Assembly (NCBI RefSeq): GCF_000613125.1
Contig: NZ_HG964497.1
Span: forward strand, 1,752,958 to 1,816,957
Source: Bacillus sp. EB01
GTDB lineage: Bacteria > Bacillota > Bacilli > Bacillales > Cytobacillaceae
DNA: 64,000 nucleotides
Reading direction: 5' to 3'
A model generated the notes under the pieces. The model searched no databases. It was not told the DNA's origin and was given only the letters and a program-made list of their open reading frames with translations. The position numbers were made by a program, and so were the translations under genes. Shown piece after piece: positions 33,556 to 64,000 of this stretch (positions within the stretch are counted from its first letter, which is position 1; each line of letters opens with the position of its first letter).

Positions 33556-33646
33556 AGCAAAATCTGACAAAGGCAAACCTGTCTAAAGGCAGGGACGCAA
33601 AGCGATGGGCCTACCCGGGAAACCGAACGGCTGCCACGCCGCCGGA
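33556..33646 (+). ncRNA. cyclic di-GMP-I (GEMM-I) riboswitch
   Basis: The conserved core is present: GGCAAACC (33572), a short hairpin, GGGACGCAAAGC (33592-33603), then the P3 arm and the closing GGCTGCC (33629). This family binds cyclic di-GMP. It lies in the leader of the secreted protein gene at 33689. Confidence 0.88.
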
Positions 33647-63280: not shown

Positions 63281-63639
63281 ATATTTTCTTATAGCCACTG
63301 GCTCACCTTTTGATACCCCATGTTCTTTCCACCAATGATACCTGCAAGGTCACTTCTCCCATTTAGTGAAGATTTTCTACAAATTGATAACAAATAAAAC
63401 GCAAATTTCTCGGCTTGTTTGGCAGTAAAGTTACAAGTACCGCTAAAACACAGAATAGTTTGAAAATTAATTGGCGATTTTTGTATATAATTGGAAAAAG
63501 ATTAATGGATTTTTTGCTGTTTTACAGACAAAAAACAACACCATACTACTAAAGAACTATTTATAATAGTGCCTAGAGCTACTACTTAAGTATGCGTCCG
63601 TGGTAATAGAAACAGACAGCCTTGACTGCTTAAGTACGA
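63281..63639. other. gene-free stretch before the second riboswitch
   Basis: It is very AT-rich in the second half with no open frame of note. TATAAT at about 63562 and direct repeats CTTAAGTA near 63582 and 63629 lie in the last 90 bases and may belong to the riboswitch promoter. Confidence 0.4.
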
Positions 63640-63730
63640 ACAGAAAAAGGCAAACCGCTTGAAAAGGTGGGACGCAAAGCTTCAGGTCTAATGCGGGAGA
63701 ATTCCGGTGCGATGACGGCTGAGCTGCCTG
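63640..63730 (+). ncRNA. second cyclic di-GMP-I (GEMM-I) riboswitch
   Basis: The core is clear: GGCAAACC (63649), a short hairpin, GGGACGCAAAGC (63669-63680), the P3 arm with GCGGGAGAATTCCGGTGC, then GGCTGAGCTGCC (63717-63728). It lies 31 bases before the SinI-like gene. Confidence 0.9.
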
Positions 63731-63750
63731 GAATACGAATGTATTTTAGG
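63727..63750 (+). promoter_or_regulatory. Shine-Dalgarno sequestering hairpin
   Basis: CCTGGAATAC (63727-63736) pairs over ten bases (two G-U) with GTATTTTAGG (63741-63750), which holds part of the ribosome binding site. Its left arm overlaps the 3' closing strand of the riboswitch, so the two folds exclude each other. Ligand binding would then free the site, an ON switch; this is inference. Confidence 0.6.
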
Positions 63751-63760
63751 GGTGAAGACA

Positions 63761-63910
63761 GTGACAGTTGCTGAAAGAGGTTTAGAGAACTTGGATCAGG
63801 AATGGATGGCTCTTATCATGGAAGCAAGAGAGATTGGACTGGGTAAAGATCTGGTGAGGGATTTTTTAAACAAGCATGAAACTGAAATGCTGCAGGCGGC
63901 AGCAAAATAA
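63761..63910 (+). CDS. SinI-type anti-repressor
   Basis: The protein is 49 residues from GTG 63761. The core LDQEWMALIMEAREIGLGKD matches the SinI domain (B. subtilis SinI: LDQEWVELMVEAKEANIS). SinI binds and blocks the biofilm repressor SinR through this helix pair. No SinR gene is seen in the remaining 90 bases. It is translated under a c-di-GMP riboswitch, which I do not know from B. subtilis sinI. AGGGGTGAAG is the ribosome binding site. Confidence 0.8.
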   Translation: MTVAERGLENLDQEWMALIMEAREIGLGKDLVRDFLNKHETEMLQAAAK

Positions 63911-63924
63911 AATTATTAAGATGG

Positions 63925-63964
63925 AAAAAATCCAATGGGGGACAACCCATTGGATTTTGTTTTA
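63925..63964 (+). terminator. intrinsic terminator of the SinI-like gene
   Basis: AAAATCCAATGGG / CCCATTGGATTTT, perfect, followed by GTTTT. The unit is monocistronic. Confidence 0.85.
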
Positions 63965-64000
63965 TTTACTGGATAGCTGCTAAACTCAGGGCTTATTCGA

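Follow-up and report, generated by a model that had tools for sequence, protein, structure and literature searches.

The right-hand end of a 64,000-nucleotide stretch of the Bacillus sp. EB01 genome, hereafter the window, carries a 49-codon sinI gene preceded by a leader with a class-I c-di-GMP aptamer and a hairpin, and, convergent to it, the 3′ end of a sinR gene (Table 1). The leader hairpin contains two G-U pairs among its ten base pairs, and a further hairpin between the two genes is, from its sequence and placement, the probable common terminator of sinI and sinR.

Table 1. Features of the sinI leader and its surroundings, in window numbering except where a locus handle (L) is given.
Feature	Position	Strand	Basis or remark
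Box AGACAAAA	63526–63533	+	36 nt 5′ of the −10, counted between first bases
TATAAT −10, probable sinI promoter	63562–63567	+	Invariant across 8 genus leaders
Class-I c-di-GMP (GEMM-I) aptamer	63640–63732	+	RF03167, RF01051; compensatory changes in P2 and P3 (A4 and 83-leader alignments)
P1 5′ strand CAG	63641–63643	+	Partner is 63728–63730
Ligand-selectivity base G	63649	+	Last base of J1/2, RF03167 alignment
J1/3	G63726–C63727	+	RF03167 alignment
C63727	63727	+	Expected Watson–Crick partner of the ligand; also outermost hairpin base
Predicted switching hairpin, 10 bp	63727–63750	+	Left arm 63727–63736, right arm 63741–63750
Probable sinI Shine–Dalgarno GGGGTGA	about 63749–63755	+	First two bases inside the hairpin
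sinI, GTG start to TAA, 49 codons	63761–63910	+	PF08671
12-bp hairpin then T-rich sequence	63928–63957	.	Read directly from the sequence
sinR 3′ end	63986–64000	−	Gene runs past the window; L013 2944–3291, 115 aa

A first-pass annotation of this DNA had read a GEMM-I core in the leader and staked that reading on a search with RF01051. The core is borne out by two Rfam families, both above their gathering scores: cmscan places RF03167 (c-di-GMP-I-GGC) at 63640–63732 with 63.8 bits against 59 (E 5.9e-14), and the genome search with RF01051 returns a significant match of 73.7 bits against 35 at the same place; the whole genome has 12 c-di-GMP-I matches, this one included. In an alignment of 83 distinct leaders, fitted to a covariance model that contains the hairpin but not P1, 20 of 31 pairs are changed on both sides (15 in the aptamer and 5 in the hairpin), a level of two-sided change reached by 0 of 500 shuffles.

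The hairpin downstream of the core lies exactly where the first-pass annotation had placed it, and its left arm overlaps the closing strand of the aptamer as that annotation had held, the 3′ strand of P1 being 63728–63730. Because this strand is common to both structures, and the hairpin also takes C63727, formation of P1 rules out that of the full hairpin; the mutual exclusion of P1 and a Shine–Dalgarno hairpin that characterizes a translational ON switch is thus found here. Across the 83 distinct leaders of the model-fitted alignment, 97.2% of hairpin cells are paired and 5 of the 10 pairs are changed on both sides. No hairpin pair changes on both sides within A4, an alignment of 24 family leaders, and because family leaders hardly differ in the hairpin, its covariation comes from few lineages. 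P1 is 3 bp long. Among 161 unique leaders (left after dropping seven rows, namely L224 twice, L211, L221, L272, L131 and L164, and 16 duplicates), P1 pairing and hairpin pairing are both possible at P1 pairs 1, 2 and 3 in 155, 147 and 138 leaders, respectively, and pairs 2 and 3 exceed all 5,000 shuffles, with no correction for kinship among the leaders. A fourth P1 pair was rejected, its 44 of 161 leaders being no better than the shuffled mean of 48.5. The shared strand changes from A-U-A to U-A-U in six leaders of one genus and from C-G-U to U-A-U in two leaders of two genera (a third, L131, was dropped), each time with both pairings kept. These doubly compatible changes, together with conservation over many genera, favor the proposed exclusion between closed aptamer and hairpin, and as the events are few they count as support rather than proof. 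In some leaders, for example L149, L147 and L153, P1 is lost and the hairpin retained.

Folding with ViennaRNA indicates how the two states might be balanced. The minimum fold of 63632–63800 (−43.5 kcal/mol) has the hairpin formed, and the aptamer with the hairpin reaches −41.6 kcal/mol compared with −34.2 kcal/mol for the aptamer with P1. The unbound state is therefore predicted to favor the hairpin by about 7 kcal/mol, so that ligand would be needed to tip the fold, and a tight ligand could plausibly close a gap of this size. Of the ribosome-binding-site covering described at first pass, one part stands: the hairpin includes 63749–63750, whereas the remainder of the roughly 7-base Shine–Dalgarno (63749–63755) lies outside it. 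In the free fold, positions 63748–63750 are paired with an unpaired probability of 0.01, compared with 0.76–0.94 when aptamer and P1 are forced, and much of 63759–63762, which takes in the first two bases of the GTG (63761–63762), is also paired (0.13–0.27 unpaired, compared with 0.38–0.77). Positions 63751–63758 are mostly open in both predicted states (unpaired probability 0.44–0.97), so the predicted block concerns the Shine–Dalgarno edge only, and this edge-only occlusion is the weakest mechanical point of the model.

The reading we favor, at a probability of roughly three in four, is that SinI, an anti-repressor, is made under the control of a c-di-GMP riboswitch that turns translation on, and that SinI neutralizes SinR and so opens matrix genes. 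Without ligand, C63727, strand 63728–63730 and the bases that follow would be drawn into the 10-bp hairpin that reaches into the Shine–Dalgarno, and the hairpin would hinder 30S loading. With c-di-GMP bound, the aptamer would hold C63727 and P1, the lower hairpin would be lost and the freed Shine–Dalgarno edge would permit SinI synthesis; SinI would then pair with the adjacently encoded SinR and release genes under SinR repression, the tasA operon among them. We infer ligand binding, the ON direction, SinR binding and the biofilm effect as steps of this model, the direction (ligand on, SinI on) following from the pairing.

The same riboswitch could instead work with the opposite sign or at another step, with ligand lowering sinI expression or the hairpin setting mRNA stability, an arrangement we regard as unlikely. 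Two points speak for it, the edge-only overlap with 63751–63758 largely unpaired in the predicted ligand-free fold, and the precedent of Vc2, which shares with the sinI leader as modeled here a class-I aptamer, translational control and P1 as the switching element and is described as an OFF switch in which P1 is decisive (PMC9262584), whereas the pairing here predicts ON. Opposing it, P1 and the full hairpin are exclusive and P1 formation is predicted to free the Shine–Dalgarno edge. The right arm of the hairpin also continues into AGGGGTGA with no T run, which speaks against this rival and led us to discard an intrinsic terminator as the expression platform. By analogy, a discussion passage in a B. 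thuringiensis study also weighs against an opposite sign, citing array data, deposited but unpublished, that show more sinI transcript when a diguanylate cyclase was overexpressed (PMC7793685). The ON reading has a likeness in Bc2/cbpA of the B. cereus group, likewise a class-I c-di-GMP ON riboswitch in a bacillus, which differs in that it is reported to act on transcription of an adhesin gene (PMC7423583), where the control predicted here is translational and falls on a regulator.

The controlled gene encodes the 49-residue SinI-domain protein that the first-pass annotation had named. Running from the GTG at 63761 to the TAA ending at 63910 and scanned with three extra upstream residues, it scores 42.2 bits with PF08671 (SinI), above the 31.4 cut-off, and phmmer aligns it with SinI, chain B of 1b0n, at E 0.0054. 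It scores 28 against the equivalog cut-off of 80 for NF046031 (AntRepSinIBacil), and by sequence it is a SinI-domain peptide outside that narrow equivalog. In the assembly, the convergent sinR adjoins sinI and encodes 115 residues, of which 1–107 match SinR, chain A of 1b0n (phmmer, E 2.6e-39); its best NCBIfam equivalog match, SlrR, stays below cut-off (68.5 versus 250). sinI was found in 8 of 8 genomes of the genus, and in 7 of them a SinI-domain open reading frame of SinR size (112–124 codons) is convergent to it, both genes lying at contig ends in the eighth. The genome further carries a tapA-like, sipW, tasA operon with an SlrR-like gene beside it. SipW is above its NCBIfam cut-off (256.3 versus 190) and TasA passes PF12389 (119 versus 22.5); TasA at its NCBIfam equivalog (76.4 versus 450), the tapA-like protein (28.5 versus 80) and, at its own equivalog, the SinR/SlrR-like protein encoded beside this operon fall below the NCBIfam cut-offs. 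The presence of this second SinR/SlrR-like gene (121 aa, L014 3319–3684) next to the tasA operon raises the alternative that the riboswitch is real and the main target of the peptide is a different member of the SinR family, for instance the SlrR-like one. We hold that to be quite unlikely in view of the close match of the adjacent protein to the 1b0n SinR chain and the recurrence of the convergent gene pair across the genus.

The ligand is predicted to be c-di-GMP because the selectivity base, 63649, is G. In the cGAMP riboswitch, J1/2 is described as A9–A14 and J1/3 as G74–C75, with C75 bonded to the ligand (PMC6274999), and the base equivalent to Vc2 G20 is given as the selectivity factor, being A where cGAMP is bound and G where c-di-GMP is (PMC9262584, PMC6456294). 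By position in J1/3, C63727 corresponds to C75. The equivalence of A14, Vc2 G20 and 63649 is our own mapping from the junction numbering. Every one of the 24 A4 leaders has G at the selectivity position and C-G as the outermost hairpin pair (A4 columns 93–118), and cGAMP is disfavored since the selectivity base is G rather than A. RF03167 is an Rfam family separate from c-di-GMP-I, and within the clan it is the family retained for the window and for eight genus loci, which could mean that the aptamer senses another ligand. This is very unlikely: RF01051 also reaches 73.7 bits at this place and is the best family in 18 of the 19 family loci with a match outside the genus, both the selectivity G and the ligand-pairing C are present, and the genome contains 17 GGDEF matches, two of them partial. 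As RF01051 is mostly the better family in other genera, we put no weight on the GGC label.

We next considered how widely the arrangement is shared. The aptamer lies directly 5′ of sinI in 8 of 8 genus genomes, and among 20 further loci of the family a curated Rfam match precedes sinI in 19, L067 being the one without. R1, a covariance model of the leader built on 24 sequences, scores the sinI leader of the window at 127.5 bits and the other 11 c-di-GMP-I aptamers of the same genome at no more than 78.5. It matched 85 of 100 additional family loci, by coordinates all directly before a sinI copy except L131; of these, L164 is weak (31 bits), L078 is the same place as L165, and L167 and L168 are second copies in genomes already counted. 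Of 151 family genomes searched, 145 have a SinI match and 124 were examined, and the aptamer stands directly before sinI in 108 of these 124, from 20 genera (107 genomes and 19 genera without the weak L164); in the other 16 the sinI copy inspected has no aptamer. Among 299 genomes sampled across the order, the best 30 R1 loci all precede a SinI-domain open reading frame, and 20 of these 30 come from eight families other than that of the window.

A pattern that includes hairpin and Shine–Dalgarno but neither the aptamer core nor sinI (CCTGRAATAC, 3–8 bases, GTATTTTRGGRG) was found at a minimum of 118 places in 84,980 species genomes. Among the 118 matches listed, a SinI HMM match begins no more than 150 nt downstream in 117 and an aptamer core is present no more than 260 nt upstream in 108, counted with a looser core expression and a SinI domain threshold of E 0.05; R1 gives at least 86 bits in 106 (70 of 80 plus 36 of 38). 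Stricter limits, applied to 80 of the matches listed (core within 120 nt upstream, domain E 0.01), leave 60 with a core, 78 with SinI and 59 with both. Genera in these 80 include Neobacillus, Mesobacillus, Peribacillus, Metabacillus, Rossellomorea, Sutcliffiella, Sediminibacillus, Gracilibacillus, Oceanobacillus and Virgibacillus. Six of the ten coreless places among the matches listed (L207, L213, L252, L254, L269 and L272) belong to species that we take to be of the B. pumilus group, and L289 is of the same type by sequence; L221, from Heyndrickxia sporothermodurans, has a degenerate aptamer, L211 is truncated where its retrieved stretch stops, and L246, from Candidatus Aegiribacteria, has no sinI and is taken as a chance match. 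By eye, the sinI aptamers of L203, L208, L240, L247 and L274 have long insertions in P3. The aptamer–sinI arrangement is widespread in the order, and the proposal of a c-di-GMP riboswitch 5′ of sinI gains from this conservation over many genera as well as from the G at the selectivity base. That a GEMM-like stretch and a palindrome stand 5′ of a small open reading frame by chance, for which we found nothing in favor, is rejected as vanishingly improbable on the E-values, the SinI match 3′ of 117 of the 118 pattern matches listed and the aptamer in 108 of 124 family genomes.

Comparison with B. subtilis suggests what the arrangement may once have been there. The two systems are alike in a SinI-domain peptide, a SinR-like neighbor, a sipW–tasA operon and a leader with hairpin and Shine–Dalgarno; they are unlike in that sinI and sinR are convergent here and sinI has a c-di-GMP aptamer. 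The genome G474, which we take to be B. subtilis 168, encodes a SinI identical to 1b0n chain B over 57 of 57 residues and gives no match to RF01051 at E 0.1. Of 44 genomes of the B. subtilis genus searched, 23 contain one or two c-di-GMP-I matches, none of them at the SinI places listed. In B. subtilis 168 the leader of sinI has the sequence ATGGCCGGACTG-G-CTGAAATAC-ATAAACAA-GTATTTTAGGAGG, matching the 3′ strand of P3, the hairpin and the Shine–Dalgarno of aptamer-bearing leaders, with ATGGCCGGACTG being 12 bases of P3 that are kept. With filters off, R1 places its best match on the sinI leader, at 14–21 bits, in 16 of 20 loci (45 kb) of the B. subtilis genus; nothing in the other four (L356, L357, L360 and L361) exceeds 8.7 bits, and L361 carries a SinI-like paralogue without the hairpin. 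When the 22 bases before the hairpin were scored, B. subtilis 168 (L348) was equaled or exceeded by 3 of 3,560 locus windows, itself included, and by 74 of 100,000 shuffles, and L352 and L359 ranked first. The signal is weak in the B. licheniformis-like L353 (33 of 3,560 windows) and no better than chance in L317 of B. pumilus type (370 of 6,192 windows, 5,849 of 100,000 shuffles).

The B. subtilis 168 sinI leader thus looks like a riboswitch fossil, and the aptamer seems to have disappeared from the Bacillus sensu stricto genomes inspected. Riboswitch control of SinI is probably the ancestral wiring of sinI/sinR in the order, with Bacillus sensu stricto having lost the aptamer and kept its 3′ end; gain of the aptamer elsewhere rather than decay would be the less simple account. 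We know of no gating of the B. subtilis matrix switch by c-di-GMP, a state of affairs that the fossil reading, if true, would fit. B. pumilus-type sinI leaders keep the hairpin and the Shine–Dalgarno and have no significant aptamer match, and such a leader is possibly a decayed or a diverged sensor. In L317, L319–L331, L334, L342 and L289, all of this type, a stretch GGGCGGAAA(C/A)ATGACGCAAGC recalls the aptamer core.

As a developmental switch of bacteria, SinI/SinR has entered the textbooks, and c-di-GMP signals biofilm formation very generally among bacteria; to our knowledge the two are treated as largely separate in B. subtilis. If the ON model is true, one conserved RNA element would connect c-di-GMP directly with matrix genes in many bacilli, and the B. 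subtilis arrangement would be a derived state. The first-pass annotation had thought such a link undescribed for B. subtilis sinI, and we found no report of it for B. subtilis. The link itself was published in 2015 for B. methanolicus MGA3, where (c-di-GMP)-sinI (BMMGA3_08510) is listed in Table 4 of a BMC Genomics paper after RNA-seq-mapped 5′ untranslated regions were compared with Rfam (PMC4342826). The element is the same, and the B. methanolicus sinI leader (L137, G051) matches R1 at 114.2 bits. In its accessible portions, the 2015 report gives the element a table row and one clause, with no mention of platform, conservation, mechanism or a link to B. subtilis (PMC4342826). Beyond B. methanolicus, our search of the literature, made mostly among papers outside subscription, showed no report of a c-di-GMP riboswitch at sinI in the titles and abstract openings of the papers listed.

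Several further observations concern the leader upstream of the aptamer and the start of the gene. Of 27 leaders looked at, 22 have TATAAT in range, and 20 of these carry TGACAAAA, with one mismatch at most, 35–37 nt 5′ of it; the window background is 0.00075 per position, and the motif was chosen after viewing these same leaders. The box at 63526–63533 imperfectly resembles what we take to be the Spo0A box (consensus TGNCGAA), and we infer from this resemblance a possible Spo0A site. If such a box acts as an activator site, sinI would be a natural two-input gate. The motif AAAGAAC, presumably a SinR half-site (consensus GTTCTYT), occurs at 63551, just 5′ of the sinI −10, the whole window holding 23 such sites, and twice upstream of the tapA-like gene (L014 3797 and 3895). 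Between promoter and aptamer, at 63583–63637, two copies of CTTAAGTA flank a stretch and form a 10-bp helix by alifold in eight genus leaders (−6.5 kcal/mol). This helix is not predicted in eight other family leaders (alifold, about 0), so we do not claim it for the switch and dropped it as a feature of genus leaders only. The sinI start codon varies within the genus between GTG, TTG and, in L017, an apparent ATT near 1494–1503, where an in-frame GTG inside the Shine–Dalgarno is the alternative start (compare L020 near 1495–1503); such variable starts may reflect weak initiation.

Other c-di-GMP aptamers of the same genome precede small open reading frames. At L031 and L041 these have 54 and 52 codons and no Pfam or NCBIfam match at E 0.1. 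At L032, L034 and L037, each aptamer stands before a tiny 31-codon peptide gene, the three peptides being similar to one another and ending in C-V-R-C-G-K-K-R, with two of the loci about 750 bases apart. None of the three has a Pfam match at E 0.1, and the only NCBIfam match, for the first of them, is to ribosomal protein S14 below cut-off (17.4 versus 54). The window itself contains a second class-I c-di-GMP aptamer at 33562–33646 (+; 71.2 bits), which precedes an open reading frame (L033) whose protein start is, by eye, signal-peptide-like.
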